This document shows, in pieces, positions 13,993 through 21,506 of a stretch of 64,000 bases of DNA. The stretch lies in contig NC_020453.1 of NCBI RefSeq assembly GCF_000344805.1, forward strand, positions 8,040,001 to 8,104,000, given 5' to 3'. The position numbers were made by a program, and so were the translations under genes. Below the pieces are notes generated by a model. The model made no database searches, was not told the origin of the DNA, and saw nothing but the letters and a program-made list of their open reading frames with translations. This stretch comes from Bradyrhizobium oligotrophicum S58 (GTDB lineage Bacteria > Pseudomonadota > Alphaproteobacteria > Rhizobiales > Xanthobacteraceae). Positions within the stretch are counted from its first letter, which is position 1. Each line of letters begins with the position of its first letter.

Positions 13993-14210
13993 ATCCAGCC
14001 TGCCCCCAGTGACATCACGCGGTATGGGTCCCGGGTCGGCGCCAGCCGACGCTGCGCATCGGCCGGCTTGCCCGGGACGACAGTCGTTGTTTGTCGCGTC
14101 AGCTCGGTTTGTCGCGCCAGCTTGGCTCTTGCGCCCAGCCCCATCCTCCGCTGTCGTCCCGGCGAACGCCGGGACCCATACCGCGTGATGTCACTTGGGG
14201 CAGGCTGGTT
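13993..14210. repeat. Long inverted repeat, family C (GTATGGGTCCCGG / CCGGGACCCATAC)
   Basis: Left arm (CAGCCTGCCCCCAGTGACAT then CACGCGGTATGGGTCCCGG) and right arm (CCGGGACCCATACCGCGTG then ATGTCACTTGGGGCAGGCTG) are almost exact reverse complements of ~40 bases. They are separated by ~135 bases containing further GGGACGACAG-type blocks. Related shorter copies are at 28765-28932, 33445-33630 and 38188-38345. Confidence 0.85.
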
Positions 14211-14226
14211 ATTGATCCCCGTCGAC

Positions 14227-15933
14227 CTACGATGACGGAGCCGAGACCGGCAGCGGCTCGATCTTGGCGGCGCCGCTCGCGCCCTTCGTCGGCGCGCTCG
14301 GCAGGATCACGCCCGCCAGTGCCTGCACCGGATCGTCGCCGGGCTTGAAGCCGGACTGCACCAGGATCTCGTCGATCAAGGGCTTCAGCGCATGCACGCG
14401 CAGCAGCTCGCCGGCGAGACCTTCGCCGAAGCCGACATTGCCACCGGCACCACCGCCATTGCCGCCGAAGGCGCCGCCGGTGTGCAGGATGCGGACGTCC
14501 TTCAGATTGGCGATCGGCTTCACCATCTCGCCCAGCGCCGCCGGCATGGTCGCGATGCGCTGCTTGGCGAGCTCGAAATCGATCACGTTGCTGCCGAGCT
14601 TGTTCTGGGCCTCGTTCTTCATCAGGATCACGGCCGCTTCCGCCTCGCCGATCTGGCGCACGCCGACGGCCTTGATCTTGTTGGCCTCGGCCTCCGCTTC
14701 GGCGAGCGTCTTGGCCGCCTCGCCGCGATCGACCGCGGCACGCTTCTCGGCCTCAGCGGCGACGGTAATGCCGGTCGAGCGCTGCTCGGCCTCTTTGCGC
14801 GCGGCCATGACCGCGGTCTGACGTTCTCGATCGGCGATCTCGATCGCGCGCGCCGTCGTCACCTTTTCCTCCGCAGACACCGCCAGCGCCTCGGCCTGCT
14901 TGGCCACCGCGCGCGCCTCCGAGGTTTCCTTGCTCTTGCTCGCGATCTGGATGTCGTTGTCCTGGGTGGCGATCTGGATCTCGCGGTCGGCGTCGGTCTT
15001 GCGGCGGTTGATGGCGAGATTGGATTCGATCGCGGCGGTCTCGCGCACCTTCAGCGCCTCCGCCTCGCGCTGGGCGATTCTCTGCTGCGCCTCGATGCGC
15101 GCGTTCTCCTCGGTCTGCCACGCCGTCTGGGTTGCGCTCGCCACCTCGGCGCGGGTGCTCGCCGTCTTGTTGGCGATGTCGCGCTCCTGGCTGAGCTCGG
15201 CCTCCTTCTTGGTGCGCTCGATCTGCAAGGTGAGCTGGCGCGCCTCGAGATCCTTCTGCGCGATCGCCACTTCATTGTCGCGCACGATCGCGTTGCGGTC
15301 GCGGCGCCGCGTCTCGGTCACGGTTTTCAACAGGGTCAGGCCTTCGGCGTCGAAGAAGTTCTCGGCATTAAAGAAGGAGATGTCGGTCTGGTCGAGCTTC
15401 GTCAGCGACACCGATTCGAGCTCCAGACCATTCGACTGCACATCGGCCTCGACCGCGGCCTGGACGTGCTTGACGAAATCTGAGCGCTTCTCCTGCAGCT
15501 CCAGGAGCTCCATCGTCGCCGAGACCGAGCGAAGGCCGTCGACGAACTTGGCCTCGACCTGGTCGCGCAGCAGTTCGGCATTGTTGGTGACGGCGCCGAG
15601 GGTTTGCGCGGCGAGCGCGATCGAATCGACGTCGGGCTTCACGCGGACATAGAACTCGGCGTCGATGTCGACGCGCATGCGATCCTTGGTGATCAGCGAG
15701 TCCTTCTTGGAGCGCTCGACCCGCAGCCGCAGCGTCTTCAGGTTCACGCGCGCAACCGAGTGGAAGATCGGCAACACGACGGCGCCGCCGTCGAGCACGA
15801 CCTTCTTGCCACCGAGGCCGGTGCGCACGAAGGCCTCGTCGCGGGTGGAGCGGTGATAGAGAACGGCAAAGACGGTGCCGAGAACGATCAGCAGCACGAC
15901 GCCGATCGACGCAGGCAGAACCAGATCAAACAT
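14227..15933 (-). CDS. Flotillin-family (SPFH) membrane protein, YqiK-like
   Basis: 568 residues. One N-terminal membrane anchor (about 7-26) is followed by an SPFH/PHB domain (about 30-200, e.g. RMRVDIDAEFYVRVKPD). A very long Ala/Glu/Lys-rich coiled coil comes next (about 215-450), then a Gly-rich patch (GGAFGGNGGGAGGNVGFGEG) and a C-terminal tail. This matches flotillins of the E. coli YqiK / Bacillus FloT kind, which oligomerise at the inner membrane and organise membrane microdomains. It is the last gene of the operon with the YqiJ-like gene (36-base gap) and the PspA-type fusion gene. Confidence 0.92.
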   Translation of the reverse strand: MFDLVLPASIGVVLLIVLGTVFAVLYHRSTRDEAFVRTGLGGKKVVLDGGAVVLPIFHSVARVNLKTLRLRVERSKKDSLITKDRMRVDIDAEFYVRVKPDVDSIALAAQTLGAVTNNAELLRDQVEAKFVDGLRSVSATMELLELQEKRSDFVKHVQAAVEADVQSNGLELESVSLTKLDQTDISFFNAENFFDAEGLTLLKTVTETRRRDRNAIVRDNEVAIAQKDLEARQLTLQIERTKKEAELSQERDIANKTASTRAEVASATQTAWQTEENARIEAQQRIAQREAEALKVRETAAIESNLAINRRKTDADREIQIATQDNDIQIASKSKETSEARAVAKQAEALAVSAEEKVTTARAIEIADRERQTAVMAARKEAEQRSTGITVAAEAEKRAAVDRGEAAKTLAEAEAEANKIKAVGVRQIGEAEAAVILMKNEAQNKLGSNVIDFELAKQRIATMPAALGEMVKPIANLKDVRILHTGGAFGGNGGGAGGNVGFGEGLAGELLRVHALKPLIDEILVQSGFKPGDDPVQALAGVILPSAPTKGASGAAKIEPLPVSAPSS

Positions 15934-15969
15934 GGGGATTACTTTCGGGTTGAGGAAAGTGTCGTGGAG

Positions 15970-16620
15970 CTAAAGCGTCTTGACATTCGTAAGCTCGTCG
16001 GTTGCGGCGATCGCGATGAAGCGGCCGTCCTTGCGGTCGACGAGCAGAACCGATGCACCCACCGGCAGCGGCGGCGAGCCCGGCGCGGCCGAGGCCGTCA
16101 CCGAATGCCAGTTGCCGTGGATGTCCTTGACGCGGACACGGCCGGGCAGCCCGTCATCGAGCGGACCAACGGCGACCTCGCCGGTGCGGCCGACGAGATC
16201 GGACAGACCAACCGCATAGCTCTCGTCCTGCGGGACCAGCCGCGCCGCATAGCGCGTCGAGCTGCGCAGCAGCGGCACGGTGACAACGGCGGCGAGCACG
16301 CCCGCGGCCGTCGGCGGCAGTGCCACCGCCAGCAGTCGCGCGGCATCCTGGATCAGAAAGCCCGAGATCGAGAAGATGCCGAGCGCAAGCAGGATGCAGA
16401 TCATCAGCGGCACGCCGCCGACATTGATCCAGGACAGCACGTGACTGATGGAGCTTCCGCTGCCGTCGTGACCGAGATCGACGCTCTGGCCAAGCAGCTC
16501 ACTGATCGACAGGCCGATCAGCATCGAGCCGATTTCGACGCCGCCGACCAGCACGATCATCACAGCGGCGATCGCGAACGGCCGCACCTCGGGTTGCATG
16601 AAATGGTCGACGATGGTCAT
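15970..16620 (-). CDS. YqiJ-like membrane protein with C-terminal OB (NfeD-like) domain
   Basis: 216 residues: hydrophobic segments at about 15-38, 65-85 and 95-120, then a soluble C-terminal domain of about 80 residues. That domain has the beta-rich pattern LVGRTGEVAVGPLDDGLPGRVRVKDIHGNWHSV...PVGASVLLVD, as in NfeD/OB-fold partners of flotillins. Such proteins are encoded next to SPFH proteins and are thought to anchor or regulate them. It sits 22 bases after the PspA-type fusion gene and 36 bases before the flotillin gene. Confidence 0.87.
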   Translation of the reverse strand: MTIVDHFMQPEVRPFAIAAVMIVLVGGVEIGSMLIGLSISELLGQSVDLGHDGSGSSISHVLSWINVGGVPLMICILLALGIFSISGFLIQDAARLLAVALPPTAAGVLAAVVTVPLLRSSTRYAARLVPQDESYAVGLSDLVGRTGEVAVGPLDDGLPGRVRVKDIHGNWHSVTASAAPGSPPLPVGASVLLVDRKDGRFIAIAATDELTNVKTL

Positions 16621-16642
16621 GGGACGACGCGCCCCTGCCCGC

Positions 16643-17812
16643 TCAGTTCTGCGACTTCAGGCGCGCCAATCGCTCGGCGATGTCCTTGTCGCGCTGCAGC
16701 TTCGACAATTCGTCGATATCCGGCGACGGCGTGATGCCCTCGGGCACACCGGTCGCGCGGGCAATGACGCGAGAGGCGCGCGCCGCCTTGGCGAGACCGG
16801 TGTCCCCGGCCCGGCGCGCCGTGGCTGTCGGCTGATGGGTGAGGGCTTCGCTGCGTTCGAGTTCGGCAAGACGTATCTGCGCATCCTGCAGGCTCGACAG
16901 GATCGCGCGCAGGGTCGTCAGGACGGCGTCGATCCGCTCGGCATTCTCGTCGATCGCCCGCGACAGCACCTCGAACTGCGCTTCGAGATCCATCTGCCGG
17001 GCGATGCCGGCCCTGGCGAGATCGTCGCGGCTCTCGATGATCGCAACGCGGATCTGCTCGGCCAGCACCGACGTCTCGCGCTCGATCTCGGCGCGTCGCG
17101 CGTTCAGCCGATATTCCTCGGCCCGCGCTAATGACAGGCCGTCGCGCGCCTCGCGCTCGGCCTGCTCGATCTCGCGGATCGCCTGTTTGACCAGCGCGAC
17201 CCGGTTGTTGTCTTCGGCCTTCTCGATCGCCCCATAGGCGATGCCGGCGATGAGGCGCCCGGCGCGTGACAGGAGCGTGTCGGGGGCCGGCGCGTGTTCG
17301 GCGAGCATGACGTGGTCCTTTCCTGGGCTGATGGCTGGGTGTGAGTTCGAGGTGACGCCGAAGCGGACTTCGATGTCACCATTGTCGGCGCGCACAAGTT
17401 GCGCCGGCGTCGCGTGCGTCCATCCCGCGGCATAGCCGGTGACCGCGAACGGAATCGTGAAACGGCCAAGCGCGGTGCCGAGCGACAGCGTGCCCGCGTC
17501 CCTGACATTCACCAGGCGGTCGTCGAGCGGCAGTCGCGGGGTCGGCGCGGCGCGATAGGCAGCGCGGTCGCGCAGGCCGAGCGTGACCAGACGCGACGGC
17601 AGCCGGGTGGCTTTGCGGATCGGGTCATAGGCATGGCCGTGCAGCGCGACGAGGTTGGCGCCAATGCCTTTGGCGGCGGCGATCTCGTCGAGCATGTCCA
17701 TCATCCGGGCATAGTCCGCGAAGGTCGCCTCGATCGCGTCCCTGGCCTCAGGGGTGAGGACGAGACGGTAGCGAATAGCCTGATCGTAGACAGTTCCGGC
17801 CATGGGGAACAT
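16643..17812 (-). CDS. PspA/IM30-family protein with a TnpB(OrfB)-like N-terminal domain
   Basis: 389 residues from the ATG at 17812, which has GGAAAG 9 bases upstream; an ATG at 17803 is an alternative. From about residue 170 to the end it looks like a whole PspA. LLSRAGRLIAGIAYGAIEKAED corresponds to the PspA start, long coiled coils follow, and LSKLQRDKDIAERLARLK matches the PspA C-terminal helix. The first ~155 residues are not PspA. YRLVLTPEARDAIEATFADYA, then ALHGHAYDPIRKATRLPSRLV, PLDDRLVNV, LSLGTALGRFTIPF and AQLVRADNGDIEVRFGV follow the order of the N-terminal helical and beta-barrel region of TnpB/OrfB transposon nucleases. No RuvC Asp/Glu motifs or zinc ribbon remain. PspA proteins protect damaged inner membranes. 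First gene of the operon with the YqiJ-like and flotillin genes. The PspA call is solid; the TnpB relation is my pattern reading. Confidence 0.75.
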   Translation of the reverse strand: MFPMAGTVYDQAIRYRLVLTPEARDAIEATFADYARMMDMLDEIAAAKGIGANLVALHGHAYDPIRKATRLPSRLVTLGLRDRAAYRAAPTPRLPLDDRLVNVRDAGTLSLGTALGRFTIPFAVTGYAAGWTHATPAQLVRADNGDIEVRFGVTSNSHPAISPGKDHVMLAEHAPAPDTLLSRAGRLIAGIAYGAIEKAEDNNRVALVKQAIREIEQAEREARDGLSLARAEEYRLNARRAEIERETSVLAEQIRVAIIESRDDLARAGIARQMDLEAQFEVLSRAIDENAERIDAVLTTLRAILSSLQDAQIRLAELERSEALTHQPTATARRAGDTGLAKAARASRVIARATGVPEGITPSPDIDELSKLQRDKDIAERLARLKSQN

Positions 17813-17813
17813 G

Positions 17814-17834
17814 AAAGCACGCTTTCCGTGCTTT
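17814..17834 (-). promoter_or_regulatory. Hairpin at the ribosome binding site of the PspA-type gene
   Basis: AAAGCACG and CGTGCTTT form a perfect 8-bp stem with a 5-base loop, ending one base before the start codon at 17812. On the mRNA the GGAAAG ribosome site overlaps the loop. The structure could control translation. A second imperfect inverted repeat (GCTCTC / GAGAGC) lies just upstream at about 17840-17863. Confidence 0.5.
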
Positions 17835-18020
17835 AGCAAGCTCTCCCTTGGTCCGAGAGAGCCATCCCCTGCCACGTCCACACCGAACGCCATGCACATG
17901 CGGATATGTCGCGCCGACCCCGCCGGGCGTTTTGAGGGCGAGCGAACAATCTCTGGTGATCGTTAAGACGGGTCGGTCGGAGCGCGACCGAACGCGTCCC
18001 AGTCGCCAGCGCTGTCATGC

Positions 18021-18110
18021 TGTGCGAAGGCGGAGCATTCAGTACTCCGCGGCAGACGATATTGAGCCGAGATGTCACGGCGTACTGGACCACCCGGTCA
18101 AGCCGAGCGA
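18021..18110. repeat. Dispersed palindrome, family B, diverged copy
   Basis: Contains GGAGCATTCAGTACTCCG and GGCGTACTGGACCACCCGG, the inner blocks shared with 5348-5445 and 38417-38500. It fills most of the spacer between the start of the PspA-type gene and the end of the kinase-like gene; no gene is seen in 17835-18166. Confidence 0.6.
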
Positions 18111-18166
18111 TGACAGCGGGGGCTTCCATGTCCAGATCGATGCGACCGGGATTGGGAAACGGTCGT

Positions 18167-19231
18167 CTAATCCAACAACTCGCGGCAGCCGAGATCATCG
18201 AACGCGAGGAAGATGCGCTCGAGATTATTCCACCAGATCACCGGCGGGATCTGGATCGCCCATTGCCAGACCGGCTGGGCGACGTGCAAGAGCACGGCGA
18301 GACGATAGTCCTGATCCAGCGCCGCCCGGTCGTAGCCGGCAACGCCATGCGCAACCAACGTCTGATGATAGCCGTCGAGCAGCGGTCGCTCGATCCGCGC
18401 GCGCCGCTCGGGATAGAGATGCAGCGCGATCATATAAGCGAGGTCGTTGGCCGGCACGCCGATCCGCCACTGGTCGAAATCGAACGCGCGGACGTCGTCG
18501 CTGTCGGCGGCCTTCGGCACCAGAAAATTCCAGACATGCGCGTCGCCATGCGCGATGCTGAGGTTTCGCCGCGAAAGATAACGCTCCGAGAGCCGCGGCG
18601 TCGCCGCCATCAGGCGCTCATAGACGGCGCGCCGGTCCGCGCTCAGGCGGTCTCCCAATTGGTCGGCGAAGCGCTGATAGTGGCCGGCAAAGGTCAGGCT
18701 GCGCCCAGCCCTCTCGTCTGCCGTCGCGAAGCTGCCGATGGACACGCCAAGCCGCGGATCATCCCACCACGCCGCATGCAGCCGCGCCAGCGCCCGCACG
18801 ATCGCCTCGGCCTGCGGCAGCGCCGGCGGCAGCGGCCATTGCGTCGCCGTCTGGTGCGTGTCGGTGAGATCCTCGAGCAGCAAGTGCCAGGTGAACGCCG
18901 CTTCGTCCCACGCGCCGCCGTAAGAGGCGGGCACCAGGCCCTTCGGCATGAGGCCCGCCAGCTCGCGATAGAAGCTGACCTCGTGGCGGCCGCCCCGCCA
19001 CAGCGTCTTGGCGAAGGCCGGCATGGCGAGCTTCAGGATCAGCGTCCTCGGTGCATTCGGCGCCGCGCCATCATAAGTCAAGCCGAGGCGGATGATGCGC
19101 GAGATCAGCATCGGGCGGTCGCTGATCACGCTGACCTCCGCCACCGCGCCTTTGTCGAGCACGCCCGCCTCGCGCATCGTGGCCGTCAACGCGGCAGGCT
19201 CGGCAGCAGGCGGCAAGTCGGTGGAGGTCAT
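18167..19231 (-). CDS. Aminoglycoside phosphotransferase (APH)-fold kinase family protein
   Basis: 354 residues. LSIAHGDAHVWNFLV is the Brenner catalytic loop (HGD....N) and AFDFDQWRIGVPANDLAYMIAL is the metal-binding D-F-D segment of APH/choline-kinase-like enzymes. The N-lobe contains LILKLAMPA, with the ATP lysine, and FYRELAGLMPKGLVPASY. Such enzymes phosphorylate hydroxyl groups of small molecules; many in alphaproteobacteria are of unknown substrate and are not resistance genes. The gene stands 60 bases after the dioxygenase gene on the same strand, so a metabolic link to the aromatic genes is possible but unproven. Confidence 0.85.
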   Translation of the reverse strand: MTSTDLPPAAEPAALTATMREAGVLDKGAVAEVSVISDRPMLISRIIRLGLTYDGAAPNAPRTLILKLAMPAFAKTLWRGGRHEVSFYRELAGLMPKGLVPASYGGAWDEAAFTWHLLLEDLTDTHQTATQWPLPPALPQAEAIVRALARLHAAWWDDPRLGVSIGSFATADERAGRSLTFAGHYQRFADQLGDRLSADRRAVYERLMAATPRLSERYLSRRNLSIAHGDAHVWNFLVPKAADSDDVRAFDFDQWRIGVPANDLAYMIALHLYPERRARIERPLLDGYHQTLVAHGVAGYDRAALDQDYRLAVLLHVAQPVWQWAIQIPPVIWWNNLERIFLAFDDLGCRELLD

Positions 19232-19291
19232 GCGGGCGCCGTCCCTTCAGGGTTGCAGCCTGATCCACACTAGCATGGATATTGCGAACCG

Positions 19292-20185
19292 CTACTTGAT
19301 CGGTGCGCGCGGCAGCACGGTGTCGCCGGCTTCCATCCGGTAGACATGTTCGAGCGAGTACCAGGGCGCGCGGACGTCCGCCTCTGTCGGATGCGGTTCG
19401 TCGTGGCGGATGAAATTGCCGAGCAGCGCTTGCGTCACGCCGAACTGCACGTCGCTGTCGATGTGCGGGTCGTTGGGATCGTAGACCTGCGAGATCAGCA
19501 CCTTGAAGCCCGGCTTGACGATCAGCGCATGCAGATGCGCCGGGCGATAGGGATGACGTCCCTGCGCTTTCAGAAGCCGGCCAACGCCCCCATCCGTTGG
19601 AATCGGATAGCCAACCATCATGACGGAGCGAAACCAGAAGCGACCGTCGGCATCGGTCGTGAGCTTGCCGCGCAGGTTCATGTCGGCCTGCTCGGGGTCC
19701 TGATTCTCGTAGTAGCCGACCGGTGAAGCATGCCAGACGTCGACCTCTGCGTCGGCGACCGGCGCTCCCCGCGGATCGACCACCCGCCCGTGCACGAACA
19801 GCGCCGGGCCTGATGTCGCCGAACGCACGATCGAGCCGCCATTCTCGGTGCGCGGCGAGTTCAACCGCCAGAACGGGCCGAGCAGCGACTGCGCCGTCTC
19901 GGTGTTGCCGCCGTCGCCATTGTTGAGCAGGCAGACCAGCGGCGAGACGCCGAGCGAGCCGGCCATCAGCACCACCTCGTTGTGGGTGTCGTTGGTGCGC
20001 TGCCCCAACTCGGCGATGATGGCCGCGGCTTCACGGAATTCGGCTTCGGTGAGGCGAACATCGCGCACGAAGCCATGCAGGTGCCTGACCAGCGAGACCA
20101 TGATCTCGCGCAGCCGCGGGTTGGTCGTCTGCTCCATCACTGCCAGCACGGCCGGCGTGACGTCCTGTTCGCGGGAGATGGTCAT
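19292..20185 (-). CDS. Intradiol ring-cleavage dioxygenase (hydroxyquinol/catechol 1,2-dioxygenase type)
   Basis: 297 residues from the ATG at 20185 (GAGGG about 9 bases upstream). The four iron ligands can be placed: Tyr in SPVGYYEN (158/159), Tyr193 in MVGYPIP, and His217 and His219 in RPAHLHALI. The N-terminal helical linker domain of catechol-type enzymes is present, and TAQSLLGPFWRLNSP opens the catalytic domain. These non-haem Fe(III) enzymes split the ring of catechol or hydroxyquinol between the two hydroxyl groups. The start GPFWRLNSPRTENG leans to the hydroxyquinol group. It lies next to a 3-oxoadipyl-CoA-type thiolase, the last step of the same funnel. Confidence 0.9.
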   Translation of the reverse strand: MTISREQDVTPAVLAVMEQTTNPRLREIMVSLVRHLHGFVRDVRLTEAEFREAAAIIAELGQRTNDTHNEVVLMAGSLGVSPLVCLLNNGDGGNTETAQSLLGPFWRLNSPRTENGGSIVRSATSGPALFVHGRVVDPRGAPVADAEVDVWHASPVGYYENQDPEQADMNLRGKLTTDADGRFWFRSVMMVGYPIPTDGGVGRLLKAQGRHPYRPAHLHALIVKPGFKVLISQVYDPNDPHIDSDVQFGVTQALLGNFIRHDEPHPTEADVRAPWYSLEHVYRMEAGDTVLPRAPIK

Positions 20186-20209
20186 GGCGCGATCCCTCGT
20201 CATCTCCGT

Positions 20210-20285
20210 CATTGCGAGGAGCGAAGCGACGAAGCAATCCAGGGCCACGCGTGCGACTCTGGATTGCTTCGCTTCGCTCGCAATG
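20210..20285. repeat. Dispersed palindrome, family A, second copy
   Basis: Left arm CATTGCGAGGAGCGAAGCGA continuing CGAAGCAATCCAG; right arm CTGGATTGCTTCGCTTCGCT continuing CGCAATG. The right arm is identical to that at 5265-5291. It lies between the thiolase and dioxygenase genes. Confidence 0.85.
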
Positions 20286-20297
20286 ACGGCGCAGTCG

Positions 20298-21506
20298 TCA
20301 GTTGATCATCTCGACCGCCAGGGCGACGCCCTGGCCGACGCCGACGCACATGGTGGCGAGCGCGCGTTTTCCCCCGCGCACTTCGAGCCCGTGCACGGCG
20401 GTCATCGCGAGACGCGCGCCGCTCATGCCGAGGGGATGGCCGAGCGCGATCGCGCCGCCATGCGGGTTGACGAAATCGGCATCGTCGGCGACGCCGAGCT
20501 GGCGCAGGCAGGCGATGCCTTGAGACGCGAACGCCTCGTTGAGCTCGATCAGATCGAAATCGGTGATCTTCAGGCCGAGCCGCTCCATCAGCTTGCGCGT
20601 CGCCGGCACCGGGCCGATGCCCATGATGCGCGGAGGCACGCCGGCCGAGGCGAGGCCGAGAATGCGCGCGCGCGGCGTGAGGCCGTGCTTCTTCACGGCC
20701 GCTTCCGAGGCGAGGATCATGGCAGCCGCGCCGTCATTGACGCCCGACGCGTTGCCGGCCGTGACGGTGCCGGGATTGCGCACGATCGGCTTGAGCTTGG
20801 CGAGACCTTCCAGCGTGGTCTCGGGGCGCGGATGCTCGTCCTTGTCGACGGTCACAGGTCCGGCCTTGCCGCCGGGCACCGACACCGGCGTGATCTCGGC
20901 GGCAAAATAGCCCGACGCGATCGCGCGTCCCGCGCGCTCCTGGGAGCGGATCGCGAACGCGTCCTGGTCGGCACGCGACACCTGGAATTCCTCGGCGACG
21001 TTCTCGCCGGTCTCCGGCATCGAATCGACGCCGTATTGCTGCTTCATCAGCGGATTGATGAAGCGCCAGCCGATCGTGGTGTCGAAGATCTCGGCCGAGC
21101 GCGAGAATGCCTCGGTCGCCTTGCCCTGCACGAACGGCGCCCGTGTCATCGATTCGACGCCGCCGGCGATCGCGAGAGCGACCTCGCCGGCGCGAATGGC
21201 GCGGCCCGCGGCGCCGACCGCGTCGAGCCCGGAGGCGCAGAGGCGGTTGAGCGTCTGGCCCGGAATGGAATCGGGCAGGCCCGCGAGCAGCAGCGCCATG
21301 CGCGCGACGTTGCGGTTGTCTTCGCCGGCCTGGTTGGCGCAGCCGAAGAACACCTCATCCACGGCAGCCCAGTCGAGATTCGGATGCTTCGCCTTCAGCG
21401 CCTTGAGCGGCGTCGCGGCGAGATCGTCGGTGCGCACTTTTGCCAGCGCGCCGCCGAAGCGGCCGATCGGCGTCCGCACCGCATCACAAATGTAGACGTC
21501 TCGCAT
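20298..21506 (-). CDS. pcaF: Acetyl-CoA acyltransferase, 3-oxoadipyl-CoA thiolase type
   Basis: 402 residues, the usual length. The acyl-accepting Cys90 is in LNRLCASGLDAV. The second motif is NPHGGAIALGHPLGMSGARL and the C-terminal active-site cysteine is in ATMCVGVGQG. The start MRDVYICDAVRTPIGRFGGALA is that of PcaF/PaaJ thiolases, which cleave 3-oxoadipyl-CoA to succinyl-CoA and acetyl-CoA at the end of the beta-ketoadipate pathway. It is upstream of the intradiol dioxygenase gene, separated by a palindromic repeat. A general acetyl-CoA acetyltransferase cannot be excluded. Confidence 0.88.
   Translation of the reverse strand: MRDVYICDAVRTPIGRFGGALAKVRTDDLAATPLKALKAKHPNLDWAAVDEVFFGCANQAGEDNRNVARMALLLAGLPDSIPGQTLNRLCASGLDAVGAAGRAIRAGEVALAIAGGVESMTRAPFVQGKATEAFSRSAEIFDTTIGWRFINPLMKQQYGVDSMPETGENVAEEFQVSRADQDAFAIRSQERAGRAIASGYFAAEITPVSVPGGKAGPVTVDKDEHPRPETTLEGLAKLKPIVRNPGTVTAGNASGVNDGAAAMILASEAAVKKHGLTPRARILGLASAGVPPRIMGIGPVPATRKLMERLGLKITDFDLIELNEAFASQGIACLRQLGVADDADFVNPHGGAIALGHPLGMSGARLAMTAVHGLEVRGGKRALATMCVGVGQGVALAVEMIN

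Follow-up and report, generated by a model that had tools for sequence, protein, structure and literature searches.

What a membrane-stress protein does with a part of a transposon-encoded nuclease is the question raised by one gene of Bradyrhizobium oligotrophicum S58. The gene lies in a stretch of 64,000 nucleotides (contig NC_020453.1, positions 8,040,001 to 8,104,000; hereafter the window, whose own numbering is used throughout) and encodes a PspA/IM30 family protein preceded by an N-terminal block. The first 155 or so residues almost certainly descend from the WED and REC lobe of TnpB, the RuvC part and zinc ribbon having been lost and PspA standing in their place. The best explanation as a whole, to which we give a probability of about 0.5, is a PspA stress module that would be regulated by the exapted TnpB lobe. 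Judged from sequence, the homology and the anatomy of the gene are solid, and the binding of an operator by the lobe is what we infer.

A PspA protein with an N-terminal TnpB-like lobe

The open reading frame (ORF) occupies 17812-16643 on the minus strand (389 amino acids), in a frame that is open from 17899. The original prediction, made from the same DNA, gave this extent; the ORF stands, but its start at 17812 is less likely than the ATG at 17803 (MAGTVYD...), which is favoured by comparison with relatives. The parts of the gene are as follows.

16643..17803, minus strand: gene for the fusion of a TnpB-like REC lobe with PspA; likely start at 17803, this first start being without a Shine-Dalgarno sequence
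17348..17782, minus strand: TnpB-derived WED and REC lobe, residues about 11-155 (strand 11-17; helices 21-48, 54-68, 73-81 and 83-88; strands 93-153)
16643..17275, minus strand: PspA/IM30 (ESCRT-III-like) domain, residues 180-389, from Pfam, NCBIfam, the structural model and Foldseek

That the C-terminal part is PspA, as first proposed, is borne out by three kinds of comparison. Pfam PspA_IM30 matches residues 180-312 (E=4e-6) with 27.0 bits, below its gathering cut-off of 33.9, NCBIfam PspA matches residues 182-388 (E=5e-5) far below its equivalog cut-off, and the best Foldseek matches of the whole predicted model are Vipp1/PspA structures, so that the family's coiled-coil domain is present. 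A protein search returned 582 relatives at E<=1e-3; among the best 120 listed, most of those named by their source are PspA/IM30 or phage shock protein A from Bradyrhizobium. Elsewhere in the same genome (G000:C1:7153064-7153741; L001, L164) is a second PspA-family gene, of the ordinary kind, which matches Pfam above the cut-off (E=1e-22).

The TnpB-like nature of the N-terminal block, claimed in the original prediction, was upheld by tblastn, hmmsearch, hhalign with controls and a blind genome scan. An hhalign comparison of 14 fusion N-termini with nine TnpBs gave a probability of 99.0 and a score of 123.2 over 144 columns, spanning the start of TnpB to just short of RuvC-I; thirty column-shuffled TnpB alignments reached at most 20.9 and a reversed alignment 15.0. 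Most of the nine TnpBs had been picked because lobes had matched them, and therefore a blind scan of 398 genomes with a 12-lobe profile is the cleaner test. Its 11 hits are nine fusions, a chance ORF (L123) and a complete TnpB (L122, E=3e-10), in which the RuvC and zinc-ribbon motifs are present. The TnpB set used here matches solved Cas12f and TnpB structures, and hmmsearch likewise leads to TnpB across the whole domain.

Searches of plasmids by tblastn with three different lobes also led to TnpB. The Bosea lobe, run against 72,556 plasmids, found 27 records, of which 11 are PspA fusions. Of the other 16, 12 carry a TnpB or transposase annotation (best E=8e-4) and another is a TnpB without annotation; two more are short relatives that have no nuclease, and the last is an unrelated ORF. 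With the L068 lobe, the same number of fusions was joined by three TnpB/transposase and three unrelated records (17 in all), the best TnpB being haloarchaeal (E=0.03 over 94% of the query). The L112 lobe retrieved 52 records: 11 fusions, five TnpB/transposases, one nuclease-less relative (6e-6), 33 Pantoea dTMP-kinase records at E of about 3-10, which are chance matches, and two others. The motifs Y..(I/L)R....L and ST..GR are common to fusion lobes and TnpB. Where TnpB often has Gln (LSAQ/LPSQ), most fusions have Arg (LPSR/LPAR), Gln being retained in the divergent L109-L112.

The predicted fold appears to agree. In the AlphaFold model, built with 33 sequences, the confidence score (pLDDT) per block is 84-95 over residues 11-150, and the order is one strand (11-17), four helices (21-88) and six strands (93-153). 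In TnpB, WED is a barrel of seven strands, which the four helices of REC interrupt between strands 1 and 2 (PMC10097598); the predicted topology of the lobe has this WED/REC order. The fold check called for at the outset agrees at the level of topology. ISDra2 TnpB differs in its longer REC (residues 13-116) and in a helix flanking WED that is absent from the fusion model (PMC10097598). Foldseek and VIA-align of the whole model barely probe the lobe, since coiled coils, of PspA type and others, fill the leading rows and the listed VIA rows align to residues 174-334.

Two results weigh against this descent. Pfam, NCBIfam and PHROGs offered no convincing family for the N-terminus, HTH_OrfB_IS605 reaching just E=0.23 over 21 residues, and among PDB sequences no TnpB was met with a profile built from 18 N-termini, whose lone match was MarR (E=1.5). 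That no curated family model recognises the lobe is what would be expected if the likeness to TnpB were convergence or chance. This is scarcely credible in view of a colinear match over the whole lobe from several queries, shuffled controls that score far lower and a predicted topology that agrees with TnpB; nor does any other family match residues 1-160 well. The only NCBIfam hit below 1e-3 on the N-termini was a B6 transporter model (6 of 18 members, best 9e-4), which was taken as chance. PADLOC gave no useful match to the protein, a protein search with the L112 lobe produced 549 candidates with none at E<=10, and the 11 weak lobe matches in phage records include none annotated as TnpB.

The nuclease part is missing, as had been claimed. 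The TnpB match stops just before RuvC-I and the remainder is PspA; there is no Pfam match to the zinc ribbon (TNB) in the fusion, and none to PF07282 anywhere in the genome. The protein is neither a TnpB, since RuvC and zinc ribbon are absent, nor a TldR, since it is without RuvC; it is a PspA with a TnpB-derived lobe. In a FastTree phylogeny, 15 fusions form one group (support 0.98). No TnpB donor is named, because the tree was built from 176 columns and includes 16 TnpBs, the ones among 30 loci to pass a motif filter.

Stand-alone, nuclease-less TnpB-lobe proteins, annotated as hypothetical, occur on Thermobacillus and Paenibacillus plasmids (L102:1381-1911, plus strand, 176 amino acids; L103:1492-2034, plus strand, 180 amino acids). 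They consist of a lobe like that of the fusion, but they are not fused to PspA and have other neighbours, and they pair in the tree (support 0.98) beside a Bacillus TnpB. An unannotated sequence on an Ensifer adhaerens replicon (H127, NZ_CP118611.1:802462-802890) bears a weak likeness to the L112 lobe (28% identity across 93% of its length, E=0.8).

The lobe is under purifying selection, to judge from substitution ratios. In nine out of the ten pairs compared, the ratio of nonsynonymous to synonymous change (dN/dS) is 0.02-0.17, a range comparable to that of PspA, the tenth pair being one sequence twice; in the linker it reaches 0.58-0.79 in the three pairs with the window gene.

A probable internal start and a predicted free PspA

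The internal translation start, the palindrome and the operon described below go beyond the original prediction. The first two were surveyed in 96 fusion copies, namely the window's gene and 95 from fetched loci. Ninety-two copies are distinct (L085 equals L107, L083 L069, L086 L068 and L087 L080). The set is not independent, many copies coming from near-identical species; it holds 30 distinct internal-start contexts and 34 distinct palindromes. Two features of the window belong here.

17316..17321, minus strand: internal Shine-Dalgarno sequence AAAGGA, seven bases before the internal ATG; of the weakest class in the family (-5.6 kcal/mol)
16643..17308, minus strand: predicted second product, a free PspA of 221 amino acids from the internal ATG (Met169), with helix alpha0 kept

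In all 96 copies, the nearest Met codon before helix alpha0 is an in-frame ATG, 5-11 codons upstream, with a Shine-Dalgarno sequence at normal distance. The anti-Shine-Dalgarno energy of this sequence ranges from -5.6 to -12.2 kcal/mol, with a median of -11.9. For the remaining internal Met codons of these genes (n=454) the mean is -2.4; 5.1% of them attain at least the strength of -5.6 and 0.2% that of -8.5. For Met codons in long flanking ORFs (n=2668) the corresponding shares are 12.4% and 0.9%. The divergent L121, which is outside the 96, has the same layout with GAGGAG before the ATG. The linker peptide encoded over the internal Shine-Dalgarno sequence varies by lineage (EEEN, KKEAS, EEKT, GEHT, QKEQT, KDHV), as does the register. 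Therefore, it seems that the DNA rather than the peptide is kept.

The internal start is very likely functional on this evidence, and a free PspA of 221 residues is probably also made. In the long form, the alpha0-like sequence LLSRAGRLIAGIAY has an internal position; it would have a free N-terminus solely in the predicted short form. One might hold instead that the Shine-Dalgarno sequence is a relic or a by-product of charged linker codons, the long protein alone being made. GAG-rich glutamate codons yield AGGAGG by themselves in the B. japonicum type, and the strength of the window's own sequence is met by 5-12% of background Met codons. Synonymous change is almost lacking over the site in 65 genes of the commonest type, but residues 150, 151, 154 and 155 are equally invariant. 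Preservation in every copy, through 30 contexts with differing linker sequences and registers, renders this explanation quite improbable.

A palindrome, a cassette and the possible role of the lobe

The upstream region of the fusion gene contains a candidate operator.

17814..17834, no strand assigned: candidate operator, the perfect palindrome AAAGCAC-N7-GTGCTTT, whose end is 10 bases from the likely first start; the sole exact copy in the 8.26 Mb genome
17811..17839, minus strand: possible promoter TTGCTA-N17-TTTCAT around the palindrome, placed by eye; a consensus scan finds none here

The palindrome is perfect in 74 of the 96 copies and has one mismatch in 17; its end lies 10-12 bases from the first start in 95. 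Each copy was represented by its best-scoring palindrome within the 110 bases that precede residue 14, and the weakest cases (L112) may therefore be chance. L109, L110 and L111 have arms that are altered yet largely symmetric. The first start has no Shine-Dalgarno sequence at -5.6 or better in any copy (mean -3.7).

Genome scans show that the palindrome is tied to the fusion gene and to almost nothing else. Of 149 family genomes, seven contain the pattern (Y/R being allowed at one position), each of them a single time, and these are exactly the seven with fusion and YqiJ. In a set of 195 genus genomes, 113 of the 115 that carry the fusion have it, as do 4 of the 80 that do not, at most once per genome; the reversed pattern, used as a control, turns up in 10 of the 195. 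In ten genus genomes compared by eye, the site is just upstream of the fusion. One of the two carriers that lack the pattern (G1024) has a one-mismatch copy, and the other (G966) has a decayed fusion. In the latter (L176, G966:C26:53000-55500), part of the lobe and nearly all of PspA are gone and no palindrome pattern is left in the genome, while yqiJ and flotillin remain. The four non-carrier sites have two origins: one is within a Lon-like gene (by eye), and three represent one homologous intergenic place near a gene that we label DUF3102-like. At these three (L178, L179 and L180, position about 1501), the pattern stands between an enoyl-CoA hydratase-like gene and a gene of 216-247 amino acids (by eye), beside a second palindrome type, GCGAAAC-GTTTCGC. 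The CIRCE element of HrcA was considered as the identity of the fusion's palindrome and rejected; AGCAC/GTGCT is common to both, but the spacing of CIRCE is wider.

Downstream of the fusion are two further genes on the same strand.

15970..16620, minus strand: YqiJ-type membrane protein with OB fold (Pfam YqiJ_N and YqiJ_OB), directly downstream of the fusion
14227..15933, minus strand: SPFH/flotillin protein (Pfam Band_7 and Flot), downstream of the yqiJ-type gene

The yqiJ gene starts no more than 150 bases downstream of the fusion in 97 of 97 loci, a set that holds the window's own gene twice (L088 and L108), and flotillin was matched in 92 of them, the other five being short loci (about 3.4 kb). 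In the S58 genome, YqiJ is matched solely at the fusion and not beside the second PspA-family gene. Together with the palindrome, the three genes make up one cassette of patchy distribution, which is also found, with other neighbours, on plasmids of Rhizobium, Agrobacterium, Shinella and Bosea. The proposed joining of a nuclease-less, TnpB-derived domain to PspA holds, and the gene stands in an operon with membrane proteins. The scanned neighbours in the window include no transposase. Upstream of the fusion, the next recognisable gene there is APH/EcKL-like, with an intervening 121-amino-acid ORF that has no Pfam match. The genes at 18167-21506, on the same strand, encode an APH/EcKL-type kinase, an intradiol dioxygenase and a 3-oxoadipyl-CoA thiolase; the kinase was matched in just 5 of the 97 loci. 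On a contig titled Frankia sp. RB7 (L026), the fusion is found at the same identity as on Bradyrhizobium contigs, so that the label may be wrong or the assembly contaminated.

What the lobe may do can be approached from its ancestor. In TnpB, the WED/REC cleft receives the duplex of the transposon-associated motif (TAM) and contacts its bases specifically; WED and RuvC jointly carry the scaffold of the guide RNA, WED touching guide-RNA stem 4 (PMC10097598). Therefore, on the structural account in that source, the fusion keeps the reader of a DNA motif, and what has gone is the nuclease and one half of the site that carries the RNA. The net charge was computed over the last 165 residues before RuvC (TnpB) or before the internal start (fusions); it is -5 to +4 in 15 fusions, as against at least +9 in 13 of 16 TnpBs, the low ones being haloarchaeal (-6), Rhodovastum (+1, the best-matching TnpB) and Alicyclobacillus (+5). 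The lobe has mostly lost the positive charge typical of TnpB. The original prediction took it for an RNA-binding domain, and this part found no support: as described in PMC10097598, the cleft reads TAM DNA and the guide scaffold needs WED and RuvC. Since the lobe comes from a TAM-DNA reader and its positive charge is largely gone, a guide-free, self-regulating, DNA-binding switch is favoured over RNA binding.

A binder of guide-like RNA, directing the protein to nucleic acid as a nuclease-free relative of the RNA-guided TldR regulators, would be suggested by common descent with TnpB. RuvC, which holds the guide RNA together with WED in TnpB (PMC10097598), is absent here, and the bases after the lobe encode PspA. 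Rfam, which covers described families alone, found no RNA family over 14100-18300 at E<=1. Such a role appears very improbable.

The lobe is the sole member of the cassette with a DNA-reading ancestry, the yqiJ-type and flotillin genes having no match to a DNA-binding family, and a dedicated regulator is most simply sought inside the cassette. Therefore, self-repression by the lobe is proposed. In this scheme, the REC lobe, a TAM reader in TnpB, would now bind the palindrome as a dimer or oligomer without guide RNA and hold the operon down. Under membrane stress, the PspA part would assemble on the membrane with YqiJ and flotillin and pull the lobe off the DNA. The operon would then be expressed, including free PspA from the internal start as the effector, which may mix into fusion polymers. 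Autoregulation by the lobe through the palindrome is given slightly less than an even chance. The fuller picture is held more tentatively still: a one-protein, self-repressing stress switch made of a guide-free operator-binding lobe and an ESCRT-III-like membrane sensor, in which the internal start would free an effector without the DNA reader.

Several observations count against operator binding. The loss of positive charge argues against strong nucleic-acid binding of any kind, and if the palindrome simply travels with its cassette, its linkage to the gene would be seen whichever factor binds it. L112, the most divergent fusion, has no good palindrome near its start. In the window, no promoter passes the consensus scan, and most B. 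japonicum-type relatives are without a good -35 (by eye). The Agrobacterium relative L094 has a consensus promoter, TTGAAA-17-TATATT, that extends across the palindrome and stops six bases short of the ATG, as in a leaderless mRNA; an operator inside a promoter is firm for this locus only. Lastly, the arms of the palindrome pair as an mRNA hairpin in three of four leaders folded.

The last point leads to a different view of the palindrome, namely that it is a hairpin of the mRNA leader which, bound by the lobe or acting alone, would control translation of the first start with its missing Shine-Dalgarno sequence; the lobe would then bind RNA, in line with the original prediction, but that of its own leader and not a guide. 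The z values of the four leaders are -1.5 to -2.5, another structure winning in L093. Among the 34 distinct palindromes, one-sided departures mostly retain a wobble pair in sense RNA, namely T-G at pair 5 (6) and at pair 7 (2) and G-T at pair 3 (2); the others are C-A (1), G-A (1) and C-T (1). These counts were taken over related sequences and not over events, and the T-G bias at pair 5 could stem from an extended -10 (TGCTTTA). The contact of WED with guide-RNA stem 4 in TnpB (PMC10097598) would fit an RNA role; the nearly neutral lobe and the lack of an Rfam match would not. In L094, the palindrome would be untranscribed, as it is spanned by the promoter. Overall, a leader hairpin is considered distinctly unlikely.

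The same nearly neutral charge would suit a lobe that binds no nucleic acid and serves as a protein-protein or assembly domain for PspA, replacing a CesT/Tir-like chaperone, with a host regulator reading the palindrome. Published PspA-YqiJ-flotillin operons have a separate CesT/Tir gene beside pspA (PMC11237479). No CesT/Tir gene is annotated beside four plasmid loci of the fusion, the upstream neighbour in Bosea being a hypothetical protein of 127 amino acids. The purifying selection on the lobe fits any conserved role. A host regulator would, however, be expected to have further sites, and the pattern is single in its 113 carriers and no commoner in non-carriers than its reversed control in the genus. 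We regard this possibility as unlikely, though slightly less so than the leader hairpin.

If the palindrome is bound by the lobe, a TAM reader can act as a free-standing DNA-binding domain. This would bear on the evolution of motif reading in Cas12 and TnpB, including that of the protospacer-adjacent motif (PAM), and on the building of small DNA readers. With a palindrome, two starts and several culturable hosts, the hypothesis is directly testable.

Comparison with known systems

TnpB is thought to be the ancestor of Cas12. The TnpB proteins of IS200/IS605 and IS607 are RNA-guided nucleases with which the fusion has the WED and REC lobe in common, by sequence and predicted topology. It differs in the absence of RuvC and zinc ribbon, the lack of a guide RNA found, the mostly lost charge, the attached PspA and the lack of a transposase among the scanned neighbours. 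To our knowledge, the known exaptations of TnpB keep the RuvC part and the guide RNA. TldR retains an inactive RuvC fold. TldR proteins are TnpB-derived, RNA-guided transcription factors, in which TnpB has been exapted for regulation (PMC13418256). The fusion is without the entire RuvC region, and its proposed recognition would be guide-free. Here, the DNA-motif-reading lobe alone survives, under strong selection and attached to an ESCRT-III-like repair protein. Together with the conserved palindrome and the second start signal, this suggests that a transposon part was turned into a membrane-stress switch.

On the side of PspA, Ravi et al. (2024) described operons of PspA, YqiJ and band-7/flotillin with a separate CesT/Tir gene, and reported that PspA fusions are rare, less than 2% of PspA homologues being fusions or tandem repeats (PMC11237479). 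The same three proteins occur together here, yqiJ and flotillin adjoining a pspA that is fused to a TnpB lobe; the main text of that study names neither TnpB nor transposase. In the open-licence PubMed Central (PMC) literature, no paper was found that joins TnpB with phage shock protein or flotillin, nor, among the matches listed, with IM30, Vipp1 or PspA. One paper with TnpB and 'pspa' (PMC2806898) was set aside, as the term refers there to the Pspac promoter.

Two proteins from one frame by way of an internal start, as predicted here, have a parallel in the Cas11 small subunits, which arise by internal translation within a larger cas gene (PMC11899642); the proteins and their function are unrelated. 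The closest functional comparison is with Escherichia coli, where PspA is both a membrane effector and a regulator of its own operon (PMC6003685, PMC3128695). There, PspA inhibits a separate AAA+ activator, PspF, whereas here the DNA-reading domain would be part of PspA. If true, this suggests that stress can be sensed by a PspA system without a PspF-like partner in the cassette, and by analogy the fusion would do in one protein what PspA and PspF do together in E. coli.

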